From assembly GCA_030621515.1 (NCBI GenBank), contig JAUXHN010000015.1, positions 1-39,285 on the forward strand: a DNA stretch of 39,285 nt, given 5' to 3'. Shown piece by piece: positions 1,170-17,021 of the stretch (position 1 is the stretch's first letter; each line of letters starts with the position of its first letter). The notes below the pieces were generated by a model, which searched no databases, was not told the origin of the DNA, and saw only the letters and a list, made by a program, of their open reading frames with translations. The translations under genes and the position numbers were made by a program. The DNA is from Deltaproteobacteria bacterium. GTDB lineage: Bacteria; Myxococcota_A; Polyangia; JAAYKL01.

Positions 1170-1252
1170 TGCTCCACTCCTTCGTTTTACACATGGGAAT
1201 ATTCTATCAGCGATCGGGGAAAGATGTTTCCCAAAACGAATCGATGGCGCCC

Positions 1253-3076
1253 CTACGGCTGGTAGTCGTACGCGCCCATGTCTACATCGACGCCCGGCAG
1301 CCCGACGCCGATGATATCATCCCAGGGGATGCCATCCGCGTCATACAGGGCCGACACGGTATCGTCCGAGACGTCGATGCACGGGGAGGAAATCTGGATA
1401 TGGTAGTCGCCGATCACCCACTGGTCGTCCGTGGGATCGAAAATCGTTCCCAGGTCGTCCCAGTGGCCCGGGCTCACGAAAACCGGATCCAGGTCGATTA
1501 TGAACGACCCCGGGTAACCGCCCATCACATCGCTGTAGCTCACAGTGGTGCTGCTGCCCGGCTCGTCCACGATCTCCGTGGAGCCGTTGTCCCAAGCAAT
1601 GCAATTGACCACATCGGTCTCGGAAAGCTCCGCGTTGAAAACAGCGCCCCCGGAATCGCTTGCCAGATTACCGTTGATGACCGTGTTGACGATCTCCGGA
1701 TCTCCGCGCGTACCGTTGTAGAACCCGCCGCCTCGCACCGCCCGGTTTCCGTTGACGCGAGTGTTCACTATCCTCGGGAAGTCCATCTCGATGGCGAACC
1801 CTCCGCCGTTGCCCTGCGCCGTGTTGCCCGCCACCAGGCAGGACGTGAAGGTTCCCTCTGACCACTCCAGGTGAACGCCGCCTCCGTTGCCGTCTGCGGT
1901 GTTGTACAAGATCTGCATCTGCTCAAAGACGGTTTCGTTGTCGTTGCTCGCCACTCCCCCGCCATCGCCACCGGCCTGGTTGTCAATGACAATGGACTGC
2001 TCGGCGAAGGTCTGTCCTCGAAAGCCGGCCAGCCCACCGCCGTCCGTGTAGGCCGTGTTATTGGAGATGAGGGTTGAGTCCATGGATGCGCTACAATTTC
2101 TGTTGTAGATGCCGCCGCCGTTCTCCCAGGCCACGTTGTCCTCGATGATCAGGCTCCTCAACGTCGGGTTGCAGGATCCGAACTGGGAATCCATGTAGAT
2201 GCCGCCGCCGTTCTGCGTTGCAATGTTGTTGGTGATGATCAGGGTATCCAGCAGGGCGAGCCCGTTGAGGACGTACATCGCGCCGCCGTTTTGCGCGTGG
2301 TTGTCCGTGAAGCGGCAATCCTGAATTTCGGGGGCGCTGTCCCAGGCGAACACGCCGCCCCCGTCCACGGCTCGATTGTGCTTGAAAACACAATTTCGAA
2401 GATCGGTGGACGCCGCGTTCAGGTACGCTCCACCTCCCCGATGATGTGGGGATGGCCCCAGAGCCTCGCCGCCGGTGACGGTGAACCCGTCAAGCCCCGC
2501 GTTCTGCGCTCCGGAAACCACATGATAGACTGCTGCCGAACCACCCTCCTGCCGCCCGTCGAGTATGGTTTCGTTGCCGACGATATCGCGCTCTTCCTTC
2601 AGCAATTCCATCCCGGCGAAACCGCCGAACACATGAACGTTCCCGCGCAGCTTGATGGTATCCATCACGTCCGACACATAGGGCCGATAGGTTCCCCTGG
2701 CCACCCACACCTCGCAGTAGTTGAGCAGCTGAGCCGCCACGTAGGCGGAGTCGATGCCGTCCTGCACGTTGTCGAACGCACTCTGCCAGGATTCGCCGCA
2801 CAAAATGGCGTTGGAGTTGAGGTTTACATATCGAATGCAGCGACCATCGTCGTCGACATAGTTGTCCACGCACGAATCCGACTCGGTGTCGGACTCGGTG
2901 TCGTCTCCCGGCGTTTCAGTGTCGGACTCCGTGTCGGAGCCTGCATCGAATTCGTAAAAAGGGTAGAGCTTATCCCTGTCGCCGCATGCCACAACTGCGT
3001 GAAGGGCAACGACCAGAACCGCATATCGGCCAATCTGGGATATCTTTACAGGCAATATTGGGTCTTTCGGTTTCAT
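1253..3076 (-). CDS. Right-handed beta-helix lipoprotein (POMP-like repeats)
   Basis: A 607-residue predicted surface lipoprotein. A basic n-region and hydrophobic stretch end in the lipobox VVAC (Cys31, followed by Gly, which favours the outer membrane). A short Asp/Thr/Ser-Glu tether follows at about 43-70. From about residue 200 to 480 it has repeated GGG-(G/A)-(V/I/F)-(Y/F) turns alternating with N-x-A and I-x-x-N runs, the pattern of parallel beta-helix proteins and chlamydial polymorphic outer-membrane repeats. The N-terminal part resembles the start of these domains (GESWQSAFDNVQDGID). No catalytic motif is recognisable, so an adhesin-like or polysaccharide-binding role is a guess. No clear Shine-Dalgarno sequence is seen; a perfect inverted repeat lies just upstream of the start. 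Confidence 0.8.
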   Translation of the reverse strand: MKPKDPILPVKISQIGRYAVLVVALHAVVACGDRDKLYPFYEFDAGSDTESDTETPGDDTESDTESDSCVDNYVDDDGRCIRYVNLNSNAILCGESWQSAFDNVQDGIDSAYVAAQLLNYCEVWVARGTYRPYVSDVMDTIKLRGNVHVFGGFAGMELLKEERDIVGNETILDGRQEGGSAAVYHVVSGAQNAGLDGFTVTGGEALGPSPHHRGGGAYLNAASTDLRNCVFKHNRAVDGGGVFAWDSAPEIQDCRFTDNHAQNGGAMYVLNGLALLDTLIITNNIATQNGGGIYMDSQFGSCNPTLRSLIIEDNVAWENGGGIYNRNCSASMDSTLISNNTAYTDGGGLAGFRGQTFAEQSIVIDNQAGGDGGGVASNDNETVFEQMQILYNTADGNGGGVHLEWSEGTFTSCLVAGNTAQGNGGGFAIEMDFPRIVNTRVNGNRAVRGGGFYNGTRGDPEIVNTVINGNLASDSGGAVFNAELSETDVVNCIAWDNGSTEIVDEPGSSTTVSYSDVMGGYPGSFIIDLDPVFVSPGHWDDLGTIFDPTDDQWVIGDYHIQISSPCIDVSDDTVSALYDADGIPWDDIIGVGLPGVDVDMGAYDYQP

Positions 3077-3083
3077 TCATGTG

Positions 3084-3098
3084 GGGATAAAATATCCC
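3084..3098. promoter_or_regulatory. Perfect inverted repeat between divergent genes
   Basis: GGGATA-AAA-TATCCC sits 7 nt upstream of the beta-helix lipoprotein start and 19 nt upstream of the GH18 start, in a 41-bp divergent intergenic gap. It could be an operator for both genes or an mRNA hairpin in the beta-helix leader. Only the symmetry and position support this. Confidence 0.4.
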
Positions 3099-3117
3099 AA
3101 CCAGAAAGTAGCAACTA

Positions 3118-4914
3118 ATGTGCCATTGGCAAAGATTGTTCGCGATCGCTTTTTTCACGGCCTGCCTGACAGCACTCGCTCCGAGCGCAAGCGCTCAGTC
3201 GTCCACACACCGTGAGCACATGATACAGTACGGTGCCACAGTGATCGACGTTCCGGAACAACCCCCGCCGCAGAAGGATTTCTCCGCGGATCCCATCGTT
3301 GAAAAAATAGTCTACGGATACTATCCCTACTGGGTCTCCGGCTACGATGAACTGAACTGGGAGCTGCTCACCCACGTGGCGTGGTTCGCCGTCTCCATGG
3401 GATCCGACGGCAGCGCCACAAATACCAACGGCTGGCCGAGCAGCTGGACCGGGCTCGTCGATACCGCCCACGCCAACAACGTGAGGGTAGATGTGACGTT
3501 CACCCTCTTTTCGGGAAGCGGCATCGACACCCTCGTCAACAGCGCGGCCAACAGGGCCAACGCCATCTCCACGATCATCGACGCAATAGATAGCGGCAAC
3601 GCGGACGGCGCGGCCATAGACTTCGAAGGTGTTCCCGCCTCGGCGGCGACCGGGTTCGAAACATTTCTTTCAGAGCTTCGAGCCGAAATGGACCTGGCCG
3701 GACTGACGGATAAACAGATCTCCGTGGCCGGGCCGGCGGTGGACTGGTCCGGAGCGTTCGATCTGGCGGCAATCCTGCCGTCAATAGACATCTATTTTAT
3801 CATGGGTTACGGCTATTTCTGGAGCGGATCCGGACACGCGGGTCCCACCGGGATCCTGCTCACGGACGATTTCTGGCGAACCTACACCGGAAACTCGCAG
3901 CTGCGCACCATGGCCGACTATGGTTCACAAGTGTCCGAGGTCGAGCGGGCCAAGATCGTCATGGGCGTTCCCTACTACGGACGTGAGTGGACAACAGATG
4001 GTGATTCACTTGGCGCCGCTACTTACGCAGACGTGGGTTCTGTAACCTACAGTTCCGCCATGAACGATCTGGCCGATCCGGGCATCTCCCGCCTGTGGGA
4101 CGATCATTCCCTCGGTCCCTGGTATGCGTTCCAGGACGGGGTGTCATGGCACCAGGTGTATTACGACGACGAGGAAAGTCTCGCCTGGAAGTACCGCCTG
4201 GTGAACGAGCAGGGGCTGGGCGGCATCGGCATATGGGCGTTGCGCTACGACGGCGATCACACGGCTCTGTGGGACGAGATAGAGGCCGCGTTCGCGGGCG
4301 ATTTCACTCCCCACGAGGGAGACAAGGATGAGCCCATACCGGTGACCGACTTTCCGTTCGACGACAACAGGGACACCTCGGACCATGCAGCAGGAGGGTG
4401 TTTCTTCAATTTCTATTCCGGGGCACAAGACGTGGATGAGTGGGGCAGGGAGTTCGTCTACCGTGTTGAGATCTGCCACGACGGCGAGCTGATGGCTACC
4501 GTCGACGGAGACGGCGGGGGGGTGGACAACGACGTGCACATTCTCACGGACCTCTCGCAGAACGCCTGTGTCGCAAGAGGAAACAACTCAGCCTCCTTCG
4601 AGGTTTCACCGGGAACCTACTACGTTGTCGTGGACACGTACGTGGACGATGCGGTCCTTCAGGGCGGCCCTTTCGATCTTTTACTCGAGGGTATCGGGAT
4701 CCCCAACCCTCAGTGCCCGGAAGGGCTCGTATGCGAAGACGGCGAGTGTATCGATCCCGACGAGGAACCGGACGGAGGCGATGACACGGACGCCGGCGAC
4801 GACTCCGGGTGCTACGAGGTGACCGAGAAAGTGAACACCTGCGGTTGCAACCTGCCCGGAAGCGAGCCGCGCCTGACAACGTTGTTTCCGCTGTTGCTTA
4901 TGACCCTGCATTAA
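3118..4914 (+). CDS. Secreted glycoside hydrolase family 18-like protein with CGC tail
   Basis: A 598-residue secreted protein. The signal peptide is residues 1-26 (ASA before Gln27). The GH18 barrel covers roughly 55-395, with the signature DGAAIDFEG at 163-171, Glu170 being the expected catalytic acid, and later conserved blocks GVPYYGREW (about 283-291) and a Trp near GIGIWALRYDGD. GH18 enzymes cleave chitin, peptidoglycan or related N-acetylglucosamine polymers; the layout recalls YaaH/SleL-type spore and cell-wall proteins as much as chitinases. Residues about 410-525 look like a PPC-type beta-sandwich. An acidic linker is followed by a tail with CGC, Gly-Ser and a hydrophobic end (LFPLLLMTLH), possibly a surface-sorting signal. 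No strong ribosome site is seen. Confidence 0.87.
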   Translation: MCHWQRLFAIAFFTACLTALAPSASAQSSTHREHMIQYGATVIDVPEQPPPQKDFSADPIVEKIVYGYYPYWVSGYDELNWELLTHVAWFAVSMGSDGSATNTNGWPSSWTGLVDTAHANNVRVDVTFTLFSGSGIDTLVNSAANRANAISTIIDAIDSGNADGAAIDFEGVPASAATGFETFLSELRAEMDLAGLTDKQISVAGPAVDWSGAFDLAAILPSIDIYFIMGYGYFWSGSGHAGPTGILLTDDFWRTYTGNSQLRTMADYGSQVSEVERAKIVMGVPYYGREWTTDGDSLGAATYADVGSVTYSSAMNDLADPGISRLWDDHSLGPWYAFQDGVSWHQVYYDDEESLAWKYRLVNEQGLGGIGIWALRYDGDHTALWDEIEAAFAGDFTPHEGDKDEPIPVTDFPFDDNRDTSDHAAGGCFFNFYSGAQDVDEWGREFVYRVEICHDGELMATVDGDGGGVDNDVHILTDLSQNACVARGNNSASFEVSPGTYYVVVDTYVDDAVLQGGPFDLLLEGIGIPNPQCPEGLVCEDGECIDPDEEPDGGDDTDAGDDSGCYEVTEKVNTCGCNLPGSEPRLTTLFPLLLMTLH

Positions 4915-5045
4915 AGTGGATATGGAAATCTCTTGACTTGAATGCCGCCCCTTTAGTACCAATTTTACCTCATCAATCGAATTTAGCTTGCCGTTTCGAA
5001 GTTAATAAATTCAAATGAATAAGAAATCCAAATGAAGGAGAAATC

Positions 5046-5432
5046 ATGAAAAAATCAATTCCGATAATCGTCCTGGCAGTTGTGTCCTGCCTGGTTCTCG
5101 GATGTGAAGAAGGGTTCACGGTAAAGAAGATCTCACCCCCCATCGGAGTGATCGCGGGCGGAGAGCCGATAGATATCTTGGGTTCCGGTTTCAACGTGGA
5201 CATGGGCATTTCCGTGTATTTCGGCAACACCAAGGTGGACAATGTGGTCATTCGCAGCTCGAAAAAGATGACCATCTCGTCTCCTGGCGCCAACGGGCCG
5301 GGCCCGGTGAACGTGAGGATTGCCACCGACGACGGCAAGGAGTTTCTTCTCAGGGATGCGTTCACCTACGTGGTCAAGTCCAACATGGACATTCGCGATC
5401 TCGGTATGCGCAAGAGCTTGAGAGAGCAATAA
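5046..5432 (+). CDS. IPT/TIG-domain lipoprotein
   Basis: A small 128-residue lipoprotein. The signal peptide ends in the lipobox LVLGC (Cys20, then Glu). Residues about 25-110 form one IPT/TIG immunoglobulin-like domain, recognised by the SPPIGVIAGGEPIDILGSGF opening, the central VYFGNTKVDNVVIRS strand, and PGANGPGPVNVRI followed by FTYV. These domains are usually structural modules of surface proteins. The start is supported by GAAGGAG 7 nt upstream. It ends 3 bp from the stop of the converging CAP gene. The short basic C-terminal tail (about 20 residues) has no recognisable motif. Confidence 0.85.
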   Translation: MKKSIPIIVLAVVSCLVLGCEEGFTVKKISPPIGVIAGGEPIDILGSGFNVDMGISVYFGNTKVDNVVIRSSKKMTISSPGANGPGPVNVRIATDDGKEFLLRDAFTYVVKSNMDIRDLGMRKSLREQ

Positions 5433-5435
5433 CCC

Positions 5436-6395
5436 CTACCTGTTCGAAACACCCAGCACTGCCCGGACACAGATGATGCGGGCTCCCATTTGCGGGTGCT
5501 CACCCTGAGTCACCGCGACCCCGATGTGAGTGTGGTCGGTTCTCAGAATTTTCTTGTTATCTTGCAGCGCCTTTTTCAATGACGCCATATCACCCGCAAG
5601 GAAGCCGATGAATGTTGTGCTCGATACAGGAGATCCATTCAGGTCGAGAGCGGGCAGCGAGCCTCCTTCGAAGCATGTTCCAATAGCTTCTTTCGCCCTC
5701 TGGTCCAGCCATCTGAGCCGCTTAAGGCGCTTGCGCTTCTTTCCCGCGCGAACCTCGTTGAGCATTTCGATGAATTGCTTTGCCGCCGCCCTGGGCTTTA
5801 TCTTTCCGGGGCGTGTCGCGAACAGCTGAGTTACCAGGATCATCTCCTGGCCGTCCTTTCGCGTCGCGGCAATGCCGACACCTACTTCCAGGACATCGGG
5901 ATCGAGGATATTGGCGCGGTGTCCCGGGGAATTCATCAATCCCTCATGAGCTTGTACCTCGTTTGCGGCGAGGGCGAGATTCTCGGTGAGATGGACGAAG
6001 GCGATTCCTGCGGCCCTGACGCGATCGCCCATTGTGCCCGAGATCTCGGATTCGTGAGCGACCTTCCCTGTGCGTGCCATTTCCGCGCAGTACTTGCGGG
6101 CCACATCGTCCAGTTCCGATGATCTCTTGACGCTCGAAAGACCGTGGTGTTTTCGAGCGCGGTTGAGTGCGACGAAGAGTAAACGTTCGATCTCCCTGGC
6201 GGAATCGTTATTCATGGCCGCTTCCCCGCTTGGCGGCACGTCGTTCCCCACGTCGGAGTCCGATGGTGAGGTTGGCGTTTTGGAATGATCCTGCGCGGTC
6301 GAGCTTGCGGTTGTGTCGCGGTCGCCGTGAGAGGATCCGCAAGCGGTGATCAGCACAAGCACGGGGAAGAGGACGCTCTTCAACCCCTGACGCAA
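5436..6395 (-). CDS. CAP (SCP/PR-1) domain lipoprotein
   Basis: A 319-residue exported lipoprotein with lipobox LITAC (Cys19, then Gly). A Ser/Thr/Asp/Pro-rich linker precedes a CAP domain at about 70-195. Recognisable pieces are VALNRARKHHG, the HESEIS segment, ENLALA and MNSPGHRANIL, which contain the conserved His and Glu residues of bacterial CAP proteins (YkwD-like). Function in bacteria is poorly defined; roles in envelope or extracellular binding are proposed. The roughly 120 C-terminal residues are not recognised. The start overlaps the end of the FHA-GGDEF gene by 16 bp, so the two are probably one transcript with coupled translation. Confidence 0.87.
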   Translation of the reverse strand: MRQGLKSVLFPVLVLITACGSSHGDRDTTASSTAQDHSKTPTSPSDSDVGNDVPPSGEAAMNNDSAREIERLLFVALNRARKHHGLSSVKRSSELDDVARKYCAEMARTGKVAHESEISGTMGDRVRAAGIAFVHLTENLALAANEVQAHEGLMNSPGHRANILDPDVLEVGVGIAATRKDGQEMILVTQLFATRPGKIKPRAAAKQFIEMLNEVRAGKKRKRLKRLRWLDQRAKEAIGTCFEGGSLPALDLNGSPVSSTTFIGFLAGDMASLKKALQDNKKILRTDHTHIGVAVTQGEHPQMGARIICVRAVLGVSNR

Positions 6396-7273
6396 TTGCG
6401 CCCCTCGGACTTGGCCAGATAGAGCTTTTCATCAACCCGGCGAACGAACTCGTTTTCTGAAATGTCTTCGGTGCTCACAGTTGCCACGCCGATGCTGACG
6501 GTGATGGGAATCTCCTCGCCCTCGAAAACGAACGTGTACGATGAGACCCGCTTCCGCAGCTGCTCGGCGAGTTCCATCGCGCCGTCGTTTGGTGTCTCGG
6601 GCAGCAGGATCACGAACTCCTCGCCACCGTAACGTGCGAAGATCTCCTCTCGCCGTGCGCGCGTGGAGATGAGTCTTCCGAGGGCCTGGAGGACATGATC
6701 ACCAGCGAGATGCCCGGCCGTGTCGTTCACCCGTTTGAAATGATCGATGTCGAACATGAGTATGGAAAGAGGTCTCCCGTATCTTTGCGCCCTGGACATC
6801 TCCCTCTCGAGTGCCTCGAGAAAGTACCGCTTATTGAACGCCTGGGTGAGACCATCGATAATGGTCATCTTGTAAATCTCCTCATGGTAGGCGGTCTCCA
6901 CGTCGCTGCCCACGAGGTACTTGAAAATGGTGTCACCGATCTTGATCTGATCGCCGTTGGTGAGAACCTCCGCGATGATCTGTTGATCGTTTACGTAGCT
7001 GCCGTTGGTGCTCTGGAGATCGGTTATCAAGCGGCGTCCCTGCTCTCTGCTCAATCGTGCATGCCGGCGGGATACGGAGTCGCTGCCTACTACGATATCG
7101 CTTGAGGGATCGCGTCCGAGGGTCATGAATCTTCCCGCGAGCAGGTGTTTTCGCCCCATATTTGGGCCGGGCGGATAGATCTGTACCAGCACGTCCTGCT
7201 CGGACTCTGCTGGCTTGAAGGCTACGGAATCAGTGACGCGTGTTTTTTCTGACGTGTCGTCAAAATCATTCAT
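6380..7273 (-). CDS. FHA-GGDEF diguanylate cyclase
   Basis: A 297-residue soluble cytoplasmic protein. The FHA domain at about 45-118 shows TLGRDPSSDIVV, SVSRRHARL and STNGSYVN, the phosphothreonine-binding surface. The GGDEF domain covers about 137-297, with FDIDHFKRVND and the active-site motif GGEEF at 216-220, so synthesis of cyclic di-GMP from two GTP is predicted. The inhibitory-site position five residues before GGEEF is RREE rather than RxxD, so product feedback may be weakened. FHA input implies control by a Ser/Thr kinase, and an intact one lies in this window near 17-18.7 kb. The start has AAGG about 8 nt upstream. It overlaps the downstream CAP lipoprotein gene. Confidence 0.92.
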   Translation of the reverse strand: MNDFDDTSEKTRVTDSVAFKPAESEQDVLVQIYPPGPNMGRKHLLAGRFMTLGRDPSSDIVVGSDSVSRRHARLSREQGRRLITDLQSTNGSYVNDQQIIAEVLTNGDQIKIGDTIFKYLVGSDVETAYHEEIYKMTIIDGLTQAFNKRYFLEALEREMSRAQRYGRPLSILMFDIDHFKRVNDTAGHLAGDHVLQALGRLISTRARREEIFARYGGEEFVILLPETPNDGAMELAEQLRKRVSSYTFVFEGEEIPITVSIGVATVSTEDISENEFVRRVDEKLYLAKSEGRNCVRG

Positions 7274-7406
7274 CTAGAGAACCTTACGAAACTTCGAAAC
7301 TTCAATTGGAGCCCTGATGACTATTCGTATCATGTAAAAAATGATAAATACCATATTTCATGCCAAAACGCACTGCACATCGAGTGAGGCCAGGGAAACC
7401 GGCACC

Positions 7407-8384
7407 ATGAGCGGATCATCACCCACGGCCGAGATTCCCGGTCACGCGTTCGGTCCGTGGTCGTTCTTGAAAGTTGCGGGTGCGAACCTCGGATTTTGCG
7501 CCATTGGGGTTGCTCGCGCCGGAGAGATTTCACAAAGGGCGAGGGACGTGTTCGGGCGGTGGTTAGGGTCGGGGCATCACGCGGGCCTCGCATACATGGA
7601 GAAGTGGTCCGACGCCAGGGCCGATACAACCCATCATGGAATAGTGGATGCTTCGACAGCGGTTGTGTGCGCGGCGCTACCGTATTCCAGGGGCGCCGTG
7701 GAGACAGGGATCTGGAAAAGCGTGGCGGCCCACGCCAGATCGAGGGACTATCACCAGGTGATGAGGGATCGCCTCGACGGGATCGTCCGGGCTATACATT
7801 CACGGTTCCCCGGAGCCATATCGCGGGTCTTCGTGGACACTGCGCCGGTGATGGAGCGATCGTGGGCTATGGCGGCGGGCCTGGGAGGCCTGGGAAACAA
7901 CGGAGCGCTCATTGTTCCGCGCGTCGGATCGAGAGTTGTGCTCGGAGAGATCGTTTGCTCCGACGTTCCGAAGCCCGAGTACACGGATGTCCCCTCGGTT
8001 CGTGGCCCTTGCCTGGAATGCGGAGCGTGCGTGGATGCGTGTCCCACCGGCGCGTTGGCGCCATCCGGGATGGTAGATTGCAACAGGTGTGTTTCCTATC
8101 ACACCATAGAGAACACGCGGGCGCCAATACCCTCTGATGTGAGTTCGGCAATGACTCTGATTTTCGGTTGCGACCTGTGCATCGACGCCTGTCCGCTCAA
8201 CCGTGCGGCGGACCGGTGTGAGCTCGACCCACCGCCTGACCGGGGGCCAGGCTCGATGACGCTGCAGGATGTGTCCGAGGCGCCGGACGAGATCCTGATC
8301 AGGATGTTTCGCGGGACGTGTATGGAGCGGACCCCAGTTGAAACGATCAGGCGCAATGCACGCCTGCTCGTCGGGAGAAATTGA
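7407..8384 (+). CDS. queG: Epoxyqueuosine reductase QueG
   Basis: Catalyses the last step of queuosine synthesis, reducing epoxyqueuosine in the tRNA wobble position with a cobalamin and two 4Fe-4S clusters. Visible family features: DYHQVMRDRL, the FVDTAPVMERSWA block holding the proposed catalytic Asp (about 144), the AGLGGLGNN loop, a first ferredoxin motif CLECGACVDACPTGAL, the NRCVSYHTIE segment, and the second cluster motif FGCDLCIDACP. At 325 residues it fits the family, which argues for this ATG over an in-frame ATG at 7341 that would add 22 unconserved residues and lacks a ribosome site. It is coupled to ybeY by near-overlap. Confidence 0.92.
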   Translation: MSGSSPTAEIPGHAFGPWSFLKVAGANLGFCAIGVARAGEISQRARDVFGRWLGSGHHAGLAYMEKWSDARADTTHHGIVDASTAVVCAALPYSRGAVETGIWKSVAAHARSRDYHQVMRDRLDGIVRAIHSRFPGAISRVFVDTAPVMERSWAMAAGLGGLGNNGALIVPRVGSRVVLGEIVCSDVPKPEYTDVPSVRGPCLECGACVDACPTGALAPSGMVDCNRCVSYHTIENTRAPIPSDVSSAMTLIFGCDLCIDACPLNRAADRCELDPPPDRGPGSMTLQDVSEAPDEILIRMFRGTCMERTPVETIRRNARLLVGRN

Positions 8385-8386
8385 CC

Positions 8387-8884
8387 ATGCGCCGAAAATC
8401 CAGAGAGTCGCCGTTGCCCAGGCCCGTGGTCGGTGTGCGATGCAGTGGAGCGGGGAGCAGCGCCGATCCTCGGACGGTGAGGAGGCGCGCGGAGAAGATC
8501 CTTCACGCTCTGGACAGGGCTCATTCGGAGCTTTCGATTCTCCTTTGTGACGATGACTTAATTCGCGATCTGAACAGGGAGCACCGCGGAGTGGACAGCG
8601 CTACCGACGTCTTGTCTTTTTCAATGCAAAACGAGGACGATCCCGCAGATCCGGCGCGGATGTTGGGCGATGTGGTCATCTCTATCGAAACCGCTGTGCG
8701 GCAGGCGAGCAGACACGGGTGCTCCGTCATCGACGAGGTGACCACGCTGCTGGTTCACGGCGTGCTTCACCTGGTGGGTTACGATCATAGTGACGACGCG
8801 GAGGAAGGTCGAATGAACGCTCTTGCCCGACACCTGAAAGGCATCGTTTCCACGCCGGAAAAGAGATTCCAGACAAGAAAATGA
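8387..8884 (+). CDS. ybeY: Endoribonuclease YbeY
   Basis: A 165-residue single-strand endoribonuclease involved in 16S rRNA 3'-end maturation and ribosome quality control. The zinc-binding signature HGVLHLVGYDH is intact at about 124-134; the upstream TDVLSF and LGDVVIS blocks are also present. The ATG at 8387 is preferred because GGGAG lies 9 nt upstream; a TTG at 8381 overlapping the queG stop is the alternative. It forms a two-gene unit with queG and is followed by an unusually long gap. Confidence 0.93.
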   Translation: MRRKSRESPLPRPVVGVRCSGAGSSADPRTVRRRAEKILHALDRAHSELSILLCDDDLIRDLNREHRGVDSATDVLSFSMQNEDDPADPARMLGDVVISIETAVRQASRHGCSVIDEVTTLLVHGVLHLVGYDHSDDAEEGRMNALARHLKGIVSTPEKRFQTRK

Positions 8885-8966
8885 AAAAAATCGCAAATAC
8901 CCACTTGACCTCCTGGAAAAACTACTCTAGAAGCCCGACCCCATTTATGCCCGTTTCTACTCGTTC

Positions 8967-8975
8967 TGTGAAAAA
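8967..8975 (-). promoter_or_regulatory. Relaxed DnaA-box match
   Basis: TGTGAAAAA fits the reverse complement of the relaxed consensus TTWTNCACA. Alone this would be chance; it is listed because it shares orientation and gap with the two perfect boxes about 190 bp away. Confidence 0.3.
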
Positions 8976-9159
8976 AACACGGTGTCAAGTATAAGCCAGG
9001 TAGGTGTCAGAATAAACACATATCGCTTGTGCAACTAACCCAGAGAATCGTCGAAAATAACTATTTGCCATGGAATACCAGCGGTTTCGAAGGATTTACC
9101 TTTCGGGGTCCAGGGTGTTTCGGCGGTTCTTTGGAAGATAATTCTTCGGGTGCCGTTTC

Positions 9160-9179
9160 TGTGGATAAATTGTGGATAA
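9160..9179 (-). promoter_or_regulatory. Two perfect DnaA boxes, 11 bp apart
   Basis: TGTGGATAA occurs at 9160-9168 and again at 9171-9179. Its reverse complement TTATCCACA is the canonical high-affinity DnaA box. The 11-bp spacing puts both on the same face of the helix, suited to cooperative binding. They lie in a gap where no gene promoter is expected. Confidence 0.65.
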
Positions 9180-9262
9180 CTCGGACGAGAAAATCACAAG
9201 ATCCCGATTTCACTGGTACTCGGTGTCACCGACAGGAATCACAAACTGATGGTTTTGGGCTG

Positions 9263-9586
9263 TTACAGGGCTAGGCAGGTCTCTACGGCCCTGTGAAAAG
9301 CCTCCAGCAGAACTTCGTGATTCTGCTGTTCCCAACAATGGGGGAAGTTCTCACGGAGCAGGTCGGGGCTGGCTGACAGAGCCTCCGAGACGTTCTTTCC
9401 CGTGAGGAACCCGGCGACATCCGAGCAACCGGTGATCTCGGTGGTGGCGTTGTTGCCAAGACCGAAGGAGACGCTGAGAATAACGCCTTCCTTGATCACT
9501 ACTGTAGCGATGACGTGGCTGTCTTTGTATTCAAACTCACCGGTTCCGGTGATTGTGCTAGAAGATGTCGGATCAGTGGAGCTCAT
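9263..9586 (-). CDS. Small IscU/NifU-like protein (divergent), hypothetical
   Basis: A 107-residue cytoplasmic protein. The middle and C-terminal half resembles the N-terminal scaffold fold of NifU/IscU: a GVILSVSF strand, a glycine-asparagine turn, a GCSDVAGFLTGKNVSEAL helix block comparable to the TELIKGKTLDEAL segment, and a final helix EAFHRAVETC. The scaffold's usual cysteine positions are not all kept: the FGCG cysteine is Asn here, and Cys appears in GCS, PHC and ETC instead. A TSCPD-like relative is the alternative. The start has AGGTG 8 nt upstream. The gene lies 45 bp downstream of the Crp/FNR-type regulator, with an FNR-like palindrome between them. Function is not established. Confidence 0.6.
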   Translation of the reverse strand: MSSTDPTSSSTITGTGEFEYKDSHVIATVVIKEGVILSVSFGLGNNATTEITGCSDVAGFLTGKNVSEALSASPDLLRENFPHCWEQQNHEVLLEAFHRAVETCLAL

Positions 9587-9621
9587 GTAACTACACCTAG
9601 CGGCACTATTGCTTTTCAGAA

Positions 9622-9635
9622 ATGATAACGATCAT
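9622..9635. promoter_or_regulatory. FNR-like palindrome ATGAT-AACG-ATCAT
   Basis: The site matches the FNR/DNR consensus TTGAT-N4-ATCAA at 8 of 10 positions, with the TGAT...ATCA core perfect and symmetric. It spans the stop codon of the Crp/FNR-family gene and is centred about 42 bp upstream of the start of the NifU-like gene. That regulator keeps Glu and Arg of the FNR recognition helix (ETAIR against ETISR), so it is a natural candidate to bind here. Confidence 0.5.
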
Positions 9636-10339
9636 ACGTGGGAAGTAATACCGGATGCGAGATCTTCGAGAGTGTCCCTGTCTCTGATGAGAATACCCCT
9701 CTTGTCGTTGGTTACGATATTCATCTTTCGCCATCTGCTCATCACCCGGATCGCCGTCTCGACAGTGGTCCCGACAAGGTCTGCGATATCCTGCCGCGAG
9801 AGCACGATAGGGATGGTTGTGCCGTCGATGGTGGGCTTCTCGCCTATCCGGTCGGCCAGTTTGAGGAGGAGGTGCGCGATGCGGTACTCCACGCCGCCCG
9901 CTGCGAGCTCTTTGATCTTTTGCATCAGCATTCGCTGCCGGCGCGCCATGCCCCTCAGGGAGCGCAGGGCCATGCCCGGCACGTTGGCGAGCAGGTCGAG
10001 AATCTGCGACCGGGGGACGCACAGAAGATTCGTGGGAGACAGGCAGATCGCCGCTGTGGTGTACGCTTCCCCCACCAGAGTTGAGGTTTCGCCGATGGCA
10101 TCCTTCGGCCCGTAGATCTCTATGATCACATCCTTGCCGGTCTCCGAGTGCTTGATGATCTTGACCCGGCCGGAGATCACGAAATACAGGCACCGACAGG
10201 TATCTCCTTCGTTCCAGATCAGGGCGTGACGATCCAGGTTGAGGCTGGTAGTCTCCCGCGCCACGAGTGCGAGACGACTGTCCGGAACTTCCGAGAAGAC
10301 CTTGAACGATTTGAGTTTTTCCAGTACGTCCGCACCCAT
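9632..10339 (-). CDS. Crp/FNR-family transcriptional regulator
   Basis: A DNA-binding regulator of 235 residues from the chosen start. The cyclic-nucleotide-binding-like barrel spans about 15-120; the usual cAMP-contact Arg-Ser pair is absent (AYTTA at that place), so cAMP is unlikely. No N-terminal FNR cysteine cluster is present either, so the signal is unknown; DNR- or haem-type sensing is possible. The winged helix-turn-helix near the C-terminus (LSRQDIADLVGTTVETAIRV) resembles FNR. The ATG at 10339 is chosen because GGGAG lies 6 nt upstream; the longer frame from 10363 has no ribosome site. It is divergent from the ECF sigma gene. Confidence 0.9.
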   Translation of the reverse strand: MGADVLEKLKSFKVFSEVPDSRLALVARETTSLNLDRHALIWNEGDTCRCLYFVISGRVKIIKHSETGKDVIIEIYGPKDAIGETSTLVGEAYTTAAICLSPTNLLCVPRSQILDLLANVPGMALRSLRGMARRQRMLMQKIKELAAGGVEYRIAHLLLKLADRIGEKPTIDGTTIPIVLSRQDIADLVGTTVETAIRVMSRWRKMNIVTNDKRGILIRDRDTLEDLASGITSHV

Positions 10340-10364
10340 AAGGGGCTCCCTTTCGCTGGACATG

Positions 10365-10393
10365 AACTAACGTGGCTTGGAACAAGTTGTCAA
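10365..10393 (-). promoter_or_regulatory. Possible promoter for the Crp/FNR gene
   Basis: Reading the minus strand, a perfect -35 TTGACA (10388-10393) is followed after 17 nt by TTAGTT (10365-10370), a poor -10. A start site here would leave a leader of about 20 nt before the preferred ATG at 10339 and would exclude the ATG at 10363. Confidence 0.35.
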
Positions 10394-10468
10394 TCCGTGA
10401 ATAGGTTCTCGGGATTGCGGACGCCAAAACGAGGTGTTAGAGTTCAGCGATGGAATAGCAGGACCGCC

Positions 10469-11200
10469 ATGACCAAACGCGCCAACATCGCGGTCTCCGC
10501 GGAAGTCTCCGGGAAAACCGCCAAAACCACGTCTGCTTCGGTGAATAAAGGCGCCCGCGGGCTGTCCATTACTAAGAAGGCAGCGGCGGCCCGAAAAGTG
10601 GAATCGCAAATCGATTTGGAGCTGGTTCGGCGCTGTCAGAAGGGCGACGATGTTGCGTTCGGCCAGCTGATAAGCCGATACCAACGAAAAGTTTTCACCA
10701 TCGCCCTGGGCATGGTGAAGACACCCGACGACGCCATGGACATCGCGCAAGAAGCGTTTATCAAGGTCCATCGCTACATCGGGAACTTTCAGGGGTCTTC
10801 GAGCTTTTATACGTGGCTCTACCGCATTATCGTCAATCTTTGCATCGATCATCTCAGGAGATCGGGCAAGTTTGCGAGTGTTGAGTTTGATGAAAGAATA
10901 TATGGAAGCGCATCGAGAGGTGGAAAAGAAGGAGTACTCTCCAAGGGACTGGACGGAGATCCTTCGCGCAACCTCGGGCGAAAGGAGTTGGCCGAACACA
11001 TCCAGGCAGCGATCGACGAGTTGCCGCCCTATCACAGGGCCGTGATCGTAATGCGCGAGATCGAGGGGATGTCGTACGCCGATATGGCAAAGGCAATGAA
11101 GGTATCAAAGGGAACAATCATGTCGCGGTTGCATCACGCAAGACAAAAGCTTCAGCGTTCCCTCAAGGATTATCTTCAGGGAGAGCTGGTGGTGAGGTAG
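10469..11200 (+). CDS. ECF-type RNA polymerase sigma factor
   Basis: A 243-residue RpoE-like sigma factor. A basic Lys/Ala-rich N-terminal extension of about 50 residues precedes region 2 (about 60-125: DAMDIAQEAFIKVHRYIGNF and the WLYRIIVNLCIDHLRR helix) and region 4 (about 180-238: ELPPYHRAVIVMREIEGMSY with helix-turn-helix VSKGTIMSRLHHAR). ATG 10469 is preferred, with AGGA 6 nt upstream; the frame is open further upstream but overlaps the divergent regulator. It is followed 16 bp later by a membrane protein that fits an anti-sigma factor. The N-terminal extension is longer than typical for ECF proteins and its role is unknown. Confidence 0.93.
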   Translation: MTKRANIAVSAEVSGKTAKTTSASVNKGARGLSITKKAAAARKVESQIDLELVRRCQKGDDVAFGQLISRYQRKVFTIALGMVKTPDDAMDIAQEAFIKVHRYIGNFQGSSSFYTWLYRIIVNLCIDHLRRSGKFASVEFDERIYGSASRGGKEGVLSKGLDGDPSRNLGRKELAEHIQAAIDELPPYHRAVIVMREIEGMSYADMAKAMKVSKGTIMSRLHHARQKLQRSLKDYLQGELVVR

Positions 11201-11216
11201 GAAGATCGGTGATGTC

Positions 11217-11765
11217 ATGAAAAGCTTGTCTGAAAAACTGCTCGCACGTTACCACGATGGGGAGATCGGCGAGAAAGATATCAAACGGGTCGAGGCGATT
11301 TTACTGGAGTCGGCGCGGGACCGGGAGTCTCTGGAAGGGATGTCCCGGATTGGAGATCTCCTCCGGTTGATGAACGAGGAGAACCTGGATTCGGTGTCCT
11401 TCGAAGGTTTCGAACAGCGCGTCCTGAACAGCCTCGATCGCGCCGAGCGCCCGGGTTTCTTCGAAAGCTTGAAGGTGTGGATGAGTGAGTTCTTCGAGCA
11501 TCGCAAGACTGTCTGGATCCCGACGGCATCACTTGTCGGGGCGGCGGCAGCCGTGTTGCTCGCGCTTCCGCTTGTAACGGGTACGGTGCCGCCGGCAACG
11601 GATCCGGGAGACGACGTTTCCTCGGGGATATGGGCGGCAGCGGCGGACAGATCGCCCGGTGGTTCCGAGGTTTTGTTGATGAACCGGGGGCAGGCTGTGG
11701 GAACGGAGTACAGTGTGCTCAACGAGCGCGGAGAAGCGATCGGGGTCGTCTGGATAAACGAATGA
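11217..11765 (+). CDS. Putative transmembrane anti-sigma factor
   Basis: A 182-residue single-pass membrane protein directly downstream of the ECF sigma gene. The N-terminal 75 residues resemble the helical anti-sigma domain (LLARYHDGEI...RRVEAILLES-like spacing) but lack the HxxxCxxC zinc motif. The membrane helix is about 100-121 and a short periplasmic domain follows, ending in a predicted small strand unit (AVGTEYSVLNERGEAIGVVW). Gene position and topology support sequestration of the sigma factor at the membrane; the signal and any protease control are unknown. Confidence 0.75.
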   Translation: MKSLSEKLLARYHDGEIGEKDIKRVEAILLESARDRESLEGMSRIGDLLRLMNEENLDSVSFEGFEQRVLNSLDRAERPGFFESLKVWMSEFFEHRKTVWIPTASLVGAAAAVLLALPLVTGTVPPATDPGDDVSSGIWAAAADRSPGGSEVLLMNRGQAVGTEYSVLNERGEAIGVVWINE

Positions 11766-11802
11766 TTGACTTTTTGAGAAAGGCAACGAGGAGTACAGAA
11801 CC

Positions 11803-12273
11803 ATGAACGCGAGGCTGCTAGCCGCAATACTCGGCCTTCTTCTTCTCTTCGGCGCGACTGCGTCGCAAGCTTCGGACAAGGTGCGATGCGAAGTGCTCAC
11901 CATCGAGGCGTCACGCAGCGGTCAGGGGATCGATCCGGCGCTTGCACAGCACGCGTCGATTTTTCAGAAGGCGCCATTCTCGGGCTTCGACACATTCAAG
12001 CTGGTTCATCGCCAGTCGTACGAGTTGACCCTGGGAGCCCCTGTTGCCCTCGCGATGCCTCAGCCTTTGACCGGAGCACTCCAGTTCAACAACCGGCTAC
12101 AGGGGAGGTTGGATCTCACCCTCTCCATCATGCGCCCGCAGCGCAGCCCGATCATCATCAACGGAAAGGCGACTCCCGGCTCTCCCTTCTTCGCGGCCGG
12201 CCTAAAGAGCGCCCATGGACGATGGGTCTTCGGCATCATCTGTGACCGGGCCAACGGCGTGGTCCATCACTGA
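11803..12273 (+). CDS. Secreted protein of unknown function, sigma operon
   Basis: A 156-residue protein with a clear Sec signal peptide (residues 1-23, cleavage after SQA). The mature part contains TIEASRSGQGIDPAL, then a KAPFSGFDTFKLV segment and two predicted beta-strand stretches; there is one Cys just after cleavage and one near the end, which could pair. I recognise the overall pattern as one that recurs beside ECF sigma factors in deltaproteobacteria, from memory only, without a named function. It follows the anti-sigma gene by 37 bp and probably belongs to the same transcript. A periplasmic stress-response or sensing role is inference. Confidence 0.75.
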   Translation: MNARLLAAILGLLLLFGATASQASDKVRCEVLTIEASRSGQGIDPALAQHASIFQKAPFSGFDTFKLVHRQSYELTLGAPVALAMPQPLTGALQFNNRLQGRLDLTLSIMRPQRSPIIINGKATPGSPFFAAGLKSAHGRWVFGIICDRANGVVHH

Positions 12274-12332
12274 TTTCTTTTTTCGTTCTCGCAAGGCCCA
12301 GCACAGCCCCGAAAACTTGACTCGCGATCTGG

Positions 12333-13709
12333 ATGTCTGGAACCTGTTTATCAATGGGCCAGTCTCTTCAAAAAAAACAAGCTGCATTGAACGGTTGGTC
12401 TACAAGACGGCTCCTGATTTTACTTGTCGGCGTTCTCATCTTCTTGAGCGCAGAGGTTCCCGTTGCGTTCGGATCTGATGACGAAGGTCCTCGTTTCTAT
12501 TCCGGGCTGGACGTCGGATACGGTTCCGTTGACGAGGATTGGTTCTTCTCGGTGATGCTGGAGCAGGGATTCTCGTTCGGTGGCCTGGATGTCGCGCTCT
12601 GGGGCCCCCTCAGGTTTCGCGTGATCGACAATGATCCTCAAGACGATGGCACGTTGCGTGAGCAGGACTGGGACGAGCCTTCAGACTTCGCACGCATAGC
12701 CCGTTCGGTAACGTATTTTCACGAGTGGGACGACGCCGTGCTCGATATCCGATTCGGCGAGCTGAATGGTGTCGGTGTGGGGCACGGCTCGGTGATGGAT
12801 TGTTATTTCAATTCCACTGACATGGATCAATACCAGGGGGGGTTGACCCTGGATGTGGACTACGGCGGCAGTGGCCTGGAGCTGGTCACCGAGAACGTTG
12901 TCGCCCCTGAGATCCTGCTGGGCCGTGTCTACATCGCTCCGCTTGCCTGGTTTCTCGAGGGAGACTGGCCCACGCGACTCGTGTTCGGATATACCCTCGG
13001 CGCCGATATCAGTGCGCCGCGTCGCACCACCGCGGATGACCCCACGACCTTGCCCGTTACGGGAGGAGACGTGTCGCTTACCTTGCTCGACAATAATGTG
13101 GTAGAGTTCACCCCCTATCTGGATATGATGGCCATGGACGGCGATCTCGGGTTGCATGCAGGCTTGGCGACTTCCTGGGCCCTGTCGCAAAAGCGAAACG
13201 TGTTCCTGCATCTGCGCGGCGAGTACCGGCGTCTTGGAGGAGACAGCCATCCGGCGATCTTCAACCCGTTTTACGAATATAATCGAAGATATTATGGCAT
13301 GGATGACGAGACCGATATGGAAAACACACTGGCCGATTCCCTCGCCAACGATGATGCAAACACGAGCGATGGGTTCATGGCCCATGCTGTTTTCGACTGG
13401 GATGAGAAGGTTCGTGTGGGAGCACGCTACGACTCGGAGGGGCGTGCCCGGCCTCACTGGGTGATGTTCAGGCTGGACGTATCACCGGTGGAGCGATTTT
13501 CCCTGGCCGGGTTCTACGCCGGTCAGGACAGGGAGCGCGGCACCGGAGTTTTCTCGGTCGATTCGTTGATCGGCGCGTCCGTGCACTATCAGATTATCGG
13601 GCCGCTGCGAGCCTTCTCCGAGTTCACTCGAAGGTGGCGGCGGGTGGGTGCGACCATGGACTGGGCCAACGAATCCGCTTTCGGTGTAGGTTTGCTCTTC
13701 TCTTATTAA
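12333..13709 (+). CDS. Predicted outer-membrane beta-barrel protein
   Basis: Up to 458 residues. The real N-terminus is uncertain: no start has a ribosome site. A TTG at 12387 would place a typical signal peptide (RRLLILLVGVLIFL... ending before GSDDEG) at the very start; ATG codons at 12333 and 12354 would add 18 or 11 residues. The mature part is rich in alternating strands with aromatic girdles, acidic loops and a final aromatic residue (GLLFSY), consistent with a porin-like barrel. Asp-rich loops around the DETDMENTLADSLANDDAN segment may bind cations. No family was recognised. It may be controlled by the upstream sigma factor. Confidence 0.7.
   Translation: MSGTCLSMGQSLQKKQAALNGWSTRRLLILLVGVLIFLSAEVPVAFGSDDEGPRFYSGLDVGYGSVDEDWFFSVMLEQGFSFGGLDVALWGPLRFRVIDNDPQDDGTLREQDWDEPSDFARIARSVTYFHEWDDAVLDIRFGELNGVGVGHGSVMDCYFNSTDMDQYQGGLTLDVDYGGSGLELVTENVVAPEILLGRVYIAPLAWFLEGDWPTRLVFGYTLGADISAPRRTTADDPTTLPVTGGDVSLTLLDNNVVEFTPYLDMMAMDGDLGLHAGLATSWALSQKRNVFLHLRGEYRRLGGDSHPAIFNPFYEYNRRYYGMDDETDMENTLADSLANDDANTSDGFMAHAVFDWDEKVRVGARYDSEGRARPHWVMFRLDVSPVERFSLAGFYAGQDRERGTGVFSVDSLIGASVHYQIIGPLRAFSEFTRRWRRVGATMDWANESAFGVGLLFSY
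12339..12366 (+). promoter_or_regulatory. Candidate ECF-type promoter before the OMP gene
   Basis: GGAAC (12339-12343) and GTCTC (12362-12366) are separated by 18 nt, the general form of extracytoplasmic-function promoters. If real, transcription would begin after both ATG candidates, which would favour the TTG start at 12387. No matching pair with this spacing was found in front of the sigma gene itself, so confidence is low. Confidence 0.25.
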
Positions 13710-13879
13710 TTGTCATTGACAAGACATCCAAAAAAAGTGAGCCGAAACATACCTTCAAAGCAACCTAATTGCAGAGCGTGCAAGATGATGACTTACTCGG
13801 TTTACACTTGAATATGAAGCTGATAACATCGCGTCCTAACTTGTTGGAATTTCTATGTTGATTGGGAGGACTGTAAGTA

Positions 13880-15673
13880 ATGAGCAGGTGTTCCCACTGC
13901 GGTGAGACTCATGGCGCGGACAACCATTTTTGCCCGGTGACAGGCAAGCCCATTGACCTCGGGCCACGCCTCGTTGGGCAGACCTTGCTGGATCACTACA
14001 AGATCGTCACTATTCTGGGAGAAGGACCCACCGGCATCGTGCTCGAAGTGGAGAATATGCAGACCGGGAAGCGCCTGGCTGCGAAACTGATCCACCCACA
14101 ACATACACGTGGCGGAAATACTGCCGATCTCCTGCTCAAGGAGGCCCACAAGGCCGGCAACCTGAATTGCCCCAATATTGCCAGGGTGATCGAGGTCGGG
14201 CGTGATACCGGCGCGGCGCCGGCCATTGTCCGGGAGTTGATGGTTGGAGAGTGCCTCGAAAATTACATTGATGATCATGGTCAGATACCACTTGGCGAAG
14301 CGGTGGGTATCACTCTCGATATTCTCAACGCGTTGAATGCCATTCACAAGGTGGGTATTCTCAACTTGGATCTATCCCCGGCGGATGTGTTTCTGGATGA
14401 ATCTACAGGAGAGAGGATCACCAAGCTCGTCGATTTCGGCGAAGGACATGTGAAATCCGGGCTCACTTCGGATGGTGGCGAAGAACCGGAGAGCTACAAG
14501 TACTACGCCCCGGAGCAACGGCGAAAAGGCTTCGAGGGCGATCCCCGAGTCGATATTTTTTCAGCGGGCGCGATCATGTATCACATGATAACAGGCCAGG
14601 AACCCGCAAGAATTCCGGCGCCGGCCAATTCGTTGCGAAAGGACACGAGTCCCAAGCTCGCGGCTGTCGTCCACAAGGCGCTGGCCGCTGCGCCGGACAA
14701 TCGTTATCAATCCGTCAAGGATTTCGAGGCTGACCTCGAGGATGCTTCGAGGGAACTTATGCCCGCCCCCGCGCCGCCCGCTCCTGCAGAACAGGCAGTC
14801 CCGGCAGATCCGATAGTTCCGGCACCTGCCCAGCCGGAACCTCAACCGGTTGCTCCTTTGGCGCCGGCGACCCCCGCTTTCGAAATGGAGCCGGAGGTGA
14901 TTGATCTGCAACCTGAATCGATGGTCGGTTACGAGGAGCCCACGGGCAGCGACGAGGAACTGGCCCAACCATCTGTCATCGTGGATATGCCCGAGGTCGA
15001 GGCGGCGGCTTCAAGACGAAAACTCGTCACGATTCTGGCGATCGTCGGGGTGCTGGGCGTAGTTGGGATCATCCTGTACTTCGCGCTGGATGTCGGCGGT
15101 GAACCCGCGAAAACGCAGCCGGACGAAGAGACGGTTGCTCCCCTGGAGAAAGTTGCGATCACGATCACGGTAATGCCCGAAAATGCGACAGTCAGCGTGG
15201 ACGGGAAACGCGTGGAGGGTAACCCGCCGGTAATCACGGTAGAAGCAAGTGATGAACTGCATACGGTTAAAGCGGTTGCGGAAGGGTATGAGTCCCTTGA
15301 GAAGGATGTGCATTTCGACAAGACCAAGGAAGTTAAATTCGACCTGATGATGATTGTTGCTCTTGAGGGTGAAACGGGCGAAAAGGACGTCAAGGAAGAT
15401 GACGTGGAAGAGATAGTGGAGCCCGAGCCTGCAGTCGTGCCGGTTCGCGAACCCGAGGCGGAACCTGTTGTAGAGCCGAAGCCCAAGCCGAAACCGATAG
15501 TAAAGCCGAAGCCGAAGCCGAAGCCCAAGCCGAAACCGATAGTAAAACCGAAGCCGAAGCCGAAGCCCAAGCCGAAGCCGATAGTAAAACCGAAACCGAA
15601 GCCGAAGCCCAAGCCGACGGGCAAGCCTAAAAAGAAAAAAGGCGGATTCGATACATCGAATCCGTATGGTTAG
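13880..15673 (+). CDS. Membrane PEGA-domain kinase homologue, probable pseudokinase
   Basis: A 597-residue protein. A short zinc-ribbon-like start (Cys4, Cys7, Cys18; the fourth Cys is replaced) precedes a Hanks-type kinase fold at about 37-290. It keeps the glycine loop (GEGPTG, 48-53), the lysine (Lys69), helix-C Glu88, DFG (185-187) and APE (210-212). The catalytic loop reads NLDLSPADV: Asp164 is kept but HRD, the following Lys and the metal-binding Asn are lost, so phosphotransfer is doubtful. A proline/acid-rich linker, one membrane helix (about 380-402), a PEGA domain (about 425-490) and a long Lys-Pro tail ending FDTSNPYG follow. The start has GGGAGGA 10 nt upstream. The downstream TPR/PEGA gene follows after 25 bp. 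Confidence 0.88.
   Translation: MSRCSHCGETHGADNHFCPVTGKPIDLGPRLVGQTLLDHYKIVTILGEGPTGIVLEVENMQTGKRLAAKLIHPQHTRGGNTADLLLKEAHKAGNLNCPNIARVIEVGRDTGAAPAIVRELMVGECLENYIDDHGQIPLGEAVGITLDILNALNAIHKVGILNLDLSPADVFLDESTGERITKLVDFGEGHVKSGLTSDGGEEPESYKYYAPEQRRKGFEGDPRVDIFSAGAIMYHMITGQEPARIPAPANSLRKDTSPKLAAVVHKALAAAPDNRYQSVKDFEADLEDASRELMPAPAPPAPAEQAVPADPIVPAPAQPEPQPVAPLAPATPAFEMEPEVIDLQPESMVGYEEPTGSDEELAQPSVIVDMPEVEAAASRRKLVTILAIVGVLGVVGIILYFALDVGGEPAKTQPDEETVAPLEKVAITITVMPENATVSVDGKRVEGNPPVITVEASDELHTVKAVAEGYESLEKDVHFDKTKEVKFDLMMIVALEGETGEKDVKEDDVEEIVEPEPAVVPVREPEAEPVVEPKPKPKPIVKPKPKPKPKPKPIVKPKPKPKPKPKPIVKPKPKPKPKPTGKPKKKKGGFDTSNPYG
15494..15620 (+). repeat. 42-bp coding repeats for a Lys-Pro tail
   Basis: The marker ccgatagtaaa recurs at 15494, 15536 and 15578, exactly 42 bp apart, encoding IVKPKPKPKPKPKP-type units. 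The tract is periplasmic by topology and resembles TonB-type rigid Pro-Lys spacers that can cross the periplasm. Confidence 0.85.
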
Positions 15674-15698
15674 TCTCATGCAAATCGGAGGGAGTTCG

Positions 15699-17021
15699 AT
15701 GAAACGTTACCTTGCATTGTTTACGGTTCTCGCGATCTTCATGACCCTGTCGTTGCCTGTTGAGGCACAAAAAGCCAAGGCGAAGAAGGCGTTCGACAAG
15801 GGTGTCGCTGCAATGGAAGATCACAACTACAAAAAGGCGTTGCAGTCTTTCGAAACTGCATACGAGGCGGCGCCTCACTGGATGGTTCTGGCACATATCG
15901 GCAATTGCCAGGCCAAGCTGAACAACCCGGTCAAATCCATCGTCGCCTATGAGCAGTTCATCAAGGATGGTGGCGATGACATTGATCCCGACGAGCGCAA
16001 TGCCGCTCGGAAGAACCTTCGGGAACAGCGAAAGAAGGTGGGAGCCCTGTTCCTGCTGGTAAAACCGAAGTCGTCAAAGGTGAACATTGATGGCGAGTCC
16101 ATCGGGAACCCGCCGTTCGAGGAGATCCTGCTCAAGGCCGGTCCTCATCACATTCTCGTGATCCGTGGAGACGAGGAAGAGGAAAAGGACATCAGCATTT
16201 ACTCGGGCAAGGAGTTGACTGTTCGGATGTATCCGAAGGACGATTCCATGGTGGCAGTCATTGCGCCGAAACCGAAACCGAAGCCCAAGACGCAGCCGAC
16301 GACAGAGCCGGAACCGGAGCCGGAACCGGAGCCGGAGCCGGAACCGGAGCCGATCGAGGCCGTGCTGATGGTATCCACAAACGTGGATCCGGCCACGGTG
16401 ATTCTCGATGGCGAGGAGCGCGGAGAAACTCCATTAGAGGAGGATTTGATGGCCGGCGCGTACAACCTCGAGGTGGGCGCCGAGGGCTACATGCCCTACG
16501 CCGAAAACGTCACGATCACCGGCGGCATGGTGAATACCTTCAACGTGTCTCTCGTTGGAGAGGACGAGAAACCGAACCCACTTTCGGTGCCTTTCTTCGT
16601 GGCGGTGGGAGTTGCCGGAGCCGGCTTGGTTATGGGCGGAATCGGGTGGGGAGTGTACGCTTCCAACAGGTCGTCCGCCGATAACTACGCTGCGCAACTC
16701 GAAGGCCTGGAAAATCCCGACGATGGTGATCCCTTCAACTGGAATGTGGATTGCCCTGACGGTGTGGTGCTTACCGAAGGTACGGCTCACGACTACTACT
16801 GCCGTAACGAGTGGGAGCGCAGGGAGTACGAGAGCAAGGCCAAGACCGGCCTGGGTCTCGGCATTGCCGGGACCTCCATATTCGTGGTCGGCGGTACCAT
16901 GGCCGCCCTCTTCTACTTCAAGCCGGAACTGTTCTTCGGTTCGGAGAGCGATGCCCAGATTATCCTTACCCCCATCGCTACAGGCGACCAGACCGCCCTC
17001 ATGTTAAGTGGTCGTTTTTAG
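15699..17021 (+). CDS. TPR/PEGA-domain membrane protein
   Basis: A 440-residue exported membrane protein. The chosen ATG has GGAGGG about 8 nt upstream and starts a clean signal peptide ending at EAQ; the frame is open 33 bp further upstream. TPR-like helices follow (about 28-115), then a PEGA domain (about 120-185), a Lys-Pro and Glu-Pro low-complexity stretch, a second PEGA domain (about 215-285), and two hydrophobic segments (about 295-320 and 385-408) separated by a Cys-containing loop. PEGA domains are thought to act in surface-layer or peptidoglycan-associated binding. It is adjacent to and cotranscribed with the PEGA pseudokinase. Its stop overlaps that of the converging kinase gene by 2 bp. 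Confidence 0.85.
   Translation: MKRYLALFTVLAIFMTLSLPVEAQKAKAKKAFDKGVAAMEDHNYKKALQSFETAYEAAPHWMVLAHIGNCQAKLNNPVKSIVAYEQFIKDGGDDIDPDERNAARKNLREQRKKVGALFLLVKPKSSKVNIDGESIGNPPFEEILLKAGPHHILVIRGDEEEEKDISIYSGKELTVRMYPKDDSMVAVIAPKPKPKPKTQPTTEPEPEPEPEPEPEPEPIEAVLMVSTNVDPATVILDGEERGETPLEEDLMAGAYNLEVGAEGYMPYAENVTITGGMVNTFNVSLVGEDEKPNPLSVPFFVAVGVAGAGLVMGGIGWGVYASNRSSADNYAAQLEGLENPDDGDPFNWNVDCPDGVVLTEGTAHDYYCRNEWERREYESKAKTGLGLGIAGTSIFVVGGTMAALFYFKPELFFGSESDAQIILTPIATGDQTALMLSGRF

Follow-up and report, generated by a model that had tools for sequence, protein, structure and literature searches.

A DnaA-box locus of conserved spacing downstream of ybeY, a candidate DnaA control site outside oriC in a family of Polyangia

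Results

Anatomy of the gap after ybeY

The window, i.e. the whole stretch of 39,285 nucleotides analysed here, is contig C263 of a metagenome-assembled genome of 4.64 Mb in 346 contigs (G000, own genome in the following). A gap of 378 bp (8885-9262) separates the end of ybeY at 8884 from the end of a small reverse-strand open reading frame at 9263, which confirmed the converging arrangement given in a preliminary description of this DNA. Of the two neighbours named there, ybeY was borne out by domain matches, whereas the label "NifU-like" for the small reading frame was not: Pfam gave nothing for it, and NCBIfam nothing meaningful. The features of the region are the following:

8384-8884, plus strand: ybeY (rRNA maturation RNase; PF02130 with E=8e-35, TIGR00043), which precedes the element in two families
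8905-8933, plus strand: tentative promoter, TTGACC-N17-TAGAAG, directed into the element; likeness in g1 and g4, −35-like part in g5
8967-8975, plus strand: DnaA box 1, TGTGAAAAA, from sequence match and conservation; several relatives have a perfect TGTGGATAA
9053-9068, no strand: place where most other genera have a central AT-rich stretch (75-92% AT over 24 bp), which is weak in the own genus
9160-9168, plus strand: DnaA box 2, a perfect TGTGGATAA that starts 193 bp after box 1, from sequence match and spacing
9171-9179, plus strand: DnaA box 3, 11 bp past box 2; a perfect copy in the own genome, while some relatives have a degenerate one
9180-9216, no strand: block after the pair with AAATCACAAGATCCCGATTTCACTGG, the same in all three genus members by comparison
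9263-9586, minus strand: small reading frame converging on the gap, without assigned family (ORF list, Pfam, NCBIfam)

TGTGGATAA is the canonical high-affinity DnaA site. Its two perfect copies begin 11 bp from each other, close to one turn of the helix, and box 1 (TGTGAAAAA, i.e. TTTTTCACA), which matches the E. coli consensus TTWTNCACA, starts 193 bp upstream of box 2. All three share one orientation. The perfect pair and the relaxed site of the preliminary description were both found again. By eye, the recognition residues in domain IV of the own genome's DnaA are the canonical ones known from E. coli (DHTT motif). Elsewhere in the window, a repeat-rich reading frame on the minus strand (29314-30699) encodes NLDGLSGITSV-like leucine-rich repeats and has many partial matches in the syntenic contig G002:C85.

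Conservation and locked spacing

In the relatives, ybeY was located and the sequence 3' of it was read. Box 1, followed by the pair in helical phase, was present in 11 genomes from seven genera of the family (g1-g6, g8), in every genus in the orientation of ybeY, although YbeY identity outside the own genus was only 41-55%. The spacing between box 1 and the pair was 193 bp in six genomes (G000, G001, G002, G003, G013, G006), 192 bp in three (G012, G005, G004), 191 bp in G009, where the boxes are degenerate, and 188 bp in G007. The distance from the ybeY stop codon to box 1, however, varied from −8 bp (G004, where the box overlaps the stop codon) to 162 bp; the constrained quantity is thus the spacing between the boxes. 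Between them, the sequence diverges widely, with an AT-rich centre kept in most genera. The three members of the own genus have no indel between the boxes, yet the gap is 83% identical among them, like other spacers, and we conclude that boxes and spacing are conserved rather than each base. In other genera a weak (g)GA-TT-A-T motif stands at the place of the AAATCACAAGATCCCGATTTCACTGG block, and in G003, G006, G007 and G009 the element is apparently followed by a comparable coding end on the reverse strand. A small conserved reading frame between the boxes was rejected in an informal check, since the spacing shifts by 1-5 bp (193, 192, 191, 188) and not in threes. In G011 (g10) box 1 alone was seen, the contig ending there, and boxes were absent from the sequence downstream of ybeY in G008 and G010. 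When ybeY was scanned against public sequences, the only matches were two members of the own genus (MAGs CSMAG_220 and CSMAG_306) and two records of Clostridia type that are unrelated.

The spacing was also searched as a pattern, TGTGRAWAA-N(179-184)-TGTGRAWAA, with the reversed pattern as control. Among 14 family genomes it matched eight times, in all eight cases after ybeY; the reversed pattern did not match. Over 193 genomes of the class there were 11 matches. Ten of them adjoin ybeY or lie just downstream of it, namely the eight of the family and two in a second family (G034 and G017); the eleventh is in G153. In G034 the match lies directly after ybeY and is accompanied by a separate tandem pair, TGTGGAAAA-CG-GGTGGAGAA, and an AT-rich centre; in G017 it lies about 1 kb after ybeY. 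The match in G153, without ybeY nearby, is of the sort that chance would give. The comparison of the gap in relatives, proposed in the preliminary description, thus found the boxes conserved in seven genera of the family and in a second family.

Within the own genome, single boxes are just slightly above the control. Allowing up to one mismatch, TTATCCACA occurred seven times in the window for 4.5 expected, which is no enrichment, and exact copies numbered only 24 in the genome, with 15 for the reversed control. A direct TTATCCACA pair within 25 bp, however, occurred a single time, at the ybeY gap, as did the spacing class of box 1 to pair, for which the control gave 0 matches. TTATCCACA at similar density all over the chromosome, named in the preliminary description as a refuting outcome, was not what the genome showed, and this and the conservation in relatives speak for a DnaA locus.

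GC skew and the origin of replication

A sharp flip of GC skew was found on another contig of the own genome, C292, at about 32.8 kb (−0.084 to the left, +0.076 to the right, over 20 kb). It falls inside a divergent gap, with uvrB starting at C292:32630 and dnaN at 32941, followed by recF. Corresponding flips occurred in G002 (C173, about 22.8 kb; −0.088/+0.075) and near parS in G012 (−0.084/+0.106), G005 (−0.097/+0.108) and G008 (−0.086/+0.074), so that in the own genome and these four relatives the flip lies about 10 kb from parS. In G002, G012 and G005 it is again at the uvrB-dnaN gap, and in G008 close to that position. The uvrB-dnaN gap itself (G000:C292:32631-32940; L205 12631-12940) is AT-rich and holds trio-like repeats; dnaA is on another contig, C118. 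By eye, AAGAAGTAGTAATACC adjoins TGTGAATTTGTGAAAAC in the own genome, as AAGTAGTCGTAGG adjoins TGTGAAAATGTGGATAAC in G012. An automated trio search with a strict box rule placed a run at uvrB-dnaN in G005, ranked other runs in G000 and G002, and found none in G012. Since it agreed only in G005, the trio call is suggestive and not proven. From skew, gene content and parS, the uvrB-dnaN gap on C292 is likely the true oriC of the own genome.

Two other places were considered and rejected. Beside dnaA no skew flip occurred in G000, G002 or G012, and beside mnmG (gidA) there were no notable boxes and no consistent flip. The region upstream of dnaA on C118 is AT-rich with two TTTTCCACA sites, which stand inverted about 366 bp apart (2333 and 2699 of L001) and flank the AT-rich stretch. 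This arrangement is kept in three genus members (L072, L075), one of the sites being TTATCCACA in L075, and likely serves dnaA autoregulation.

At the ybeY gap, the skew had one and the same sign to the left and right in G012, G005 and G004, read over 15-20 kb to either side. G009 also had the same sign on both sides, and in the own genus the skew changed by a few percent at most. The skew minimum, which had been looked for at the gap, therefore lies elsewhere, and this speaks against an origin. Within the window, skew is negative over 1-4000 and positive over 4001-17000; the turn at about 4 kb, 5 kb from the boxes, is probably driven by gene strand, since the syntenic contig G002:C85 has no negative arm. 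Neither dnaN nor recF nor parS was found near the ybeY gap in the window, all three being on C292. Beside the ybeY boxes, no trio run was detected in ten of the 11 elements, and the run in the eleventh (L005) was not unusual when compared with shuffled sequences.

DnaA boxes beside parS

Each genome has one cluster of parS sites, located in the gap between queC and dnaJ. Those of the own genome are at C292:22999 and 23048 (cluster G000:C292:22999-23061; L180-L188), about 10 kb from the likely oriC. A DnaA-box pair with a fixed spacing of 103-105 bp adjoins parS in seven family genomes. Six were found by pattern (spacing 101-107 bp), all at parS; in the seventh, G012, the first box is a variant. 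The boxes beside parS are degenerate in the own genus (TGTTAATAA and TGTTGATAA). G008 and G010, boxless at ybeY, retain DnaA boxes beside parS.

Discussion

Downstream of ybeY, and linked to it, stand DnaA boxes that are unique in their arrangement, uniform in orientation and conserved in spacing, with oriC lying elsewhere. The preliminary description had offered an origin or a DnaA reservoir: skew and the signature on C292 refuted the former, and the reading as a secondary DnaA locus is supported by the unique and conserved architecture. We consider the gap to be probably a cis-acting, DnaA-binding control locus outside oriC, with a probability of about 60%. DnaA would occupy box 1 at 8967 and would bind cooperatively to the pair at 9160/9171, which is in helical phase and whose separation of 11 bp would suit such binding on a single face of the helix. 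The fixed interval of about 193 bp (about 18 turns), with its AT-richer middle in most genera, would let both ends meet in a looped complex, and this complex would lower, reset or titrate active DnaA once the locus has been replicated. By analogy with datA, DARS1/2 and DnaA titration, which serve this end in E. coli, such an action on active DnaA appears the most likely one. DnaA occupancy, looping and an effect on the timing of initiation are what we infer from the architecture of the sites. Several observations weigh against this reading. The clear boxes number three, fewer than in datA (five) or DARS2 (six), and G008 and G010 have none after ybeY. No IHF-type site was consistent across the elements, a one-mismatch match at the same central place occurring only in L012 and L013, and the remaining IHF-like matches overlap the box pair itself. 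In some genera a promoter-like sequence points into the element. Moreover, the element keeps to ybeY and not to a known distance from oriC, which could reflect a local gene-regulatory role.

The main rival is a transcribed unit, in which a promoter just 3' of ybeY would produce a non-coding RNA or leader of about 250 nt that the DnaA boxes repress or pause. TTGAC(A/C/T) indeed stands 52-62 bp before box 1 in g1, g4 and g5, and a TA-rich −10-like hexamer follows 17 bp on in g1 and g4, which gives these two genera a TTGAC-N17-TA(g)A-like sequence and g5 the −35-like part only. A conserved block follows the box pair, and one window fold had a z-score of −2.6. The promoter-like sequence is, however, missing in g2, g3, g6 and g8, scans for canonical promoters and terminators (standard sigma-70) were empty, and the fold z-scores of the 11 elements were spread about zero for either strand. 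Rfam gave no match even at E<=5; a known or structured RNA at the gap was rejected on this ground and because fold energies were not consistently low. Moreover, the DnaA boxes themselves are the most conserved letters. We therefore regard a transcribed unit as unlikely. If the promoter is real, the element may be a transcribed unit under the control of DnaA, or, conversely, the DnaA complex may be regulated by transcription.

The gap could also be a secondary or relic origin, ancestral or auxiliary, to which DnaA still binds but from which replication starts seldom if at all; its architecture of a box, an AT-rich centre and tandem boxes recalls bipartite origins. We judge it decidedly unlikely: the gap has no unwinding element of the BUS type, and a spacing of 193 bp held across two families is not expected of a relic. 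The second spacing-locked DnaA-box pair, which adjoins parS in six family genomes, brings to mind a site for chromosome organisation or segregation with a DnaA anchor; this is quite improbable for the ybeY gap, where a parS-like site is missing. That the gap is the chromosome origin itself is highly improbable. It has DnaA boxes with a tandem pair, an AT-richer centre and an intergenic position, and the cumulative skew of the window is weakly negative to about 4 kb and positive beyond, but skew does not change sign at the gap and trio-like repeats are missing at its boxes, while it is the uvrB-dnaN gap, about 10 kb from parS, that shows the flip and the origin signature. Chance matches are practically negligible, for although single TTATCCACA copies are just slightly above the control in the own genome, the pair is unique, conserved and locked in spacing, with zero control matches.

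Dedicated DnaA loci outside the origin are understood chiefly from E. coli (datA, DARS1/2), next to box clusters in B. subtilis, and to our knowledge extra-origin sites for DnaA control or storage have been proven in only a few model bacteria. Of the E. coli loci, datA promotes the hydrolysis of DnaA-ATP, and the DARS loci, with a defined core of boxes, promote the exchange of ADP for ATP on DnaA. Like datA, the ybeY-gap element is non-coding, intergenic, away from oriC and conserved in the spacing of its boxes. The activity of datA in E. coli depends on particular boxes that are set at particular distances about an IHF site (PMC4585315). It has five boxes and the IHF site is essential, whereas the ybeY element has three clear boxes, an interval of about 193 bp and no consistent IHF-like site, in a lineage far from Enterobacteria. 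DARS1, with three boxes, and DARS2, with six boxes plus IHF and Fis sites (PMC4585315), are likewise conserved intergenic control loci of DnaA boxes outside oriC; the ybeY element differs in its direct-repeat boxes split by about 193 bp.

In slowly growing E. coli, much of the DnaA is held, and so titrated, by datA, DARS1 and DARS2 (PMC12371093). As in titration clusters, be it the origin-proximal density in E. coli or the clusters of B. subtilis, the extra boxes of predicted high affinity could hold DnaA off oriC (PMC12371093), but pure titration does not explain a spacing that is fixed across genera. The tandem boxes of the same sequence also resemble a BUS-type oriC. BUS, however, requires DnaA-trios beside the boxes (PMC8287927), and these are absent at the ybeY gap, the trio-like repeats being at uvrB-dnaN. 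We tentatively raise the possibility of a new type of locus, in which two DnaA docking ends at a fixed distance of about 193 bp would be closed into a loop by DnaA, beside ybeY in at least two families and with the parS pair in addition.

The locus in the ybeY gap offers a precise and testable geometry for DnaA complexes away from oriC. If our reading is true, dedicated extra-origin DnaA control loci have evolved well beyond Enterobacteria, with a geometry of their own. Found in genomes of a distant and uncultured lineage where oriC can be located independently, a spacing-locked locus would mean that such switches are more widespread.
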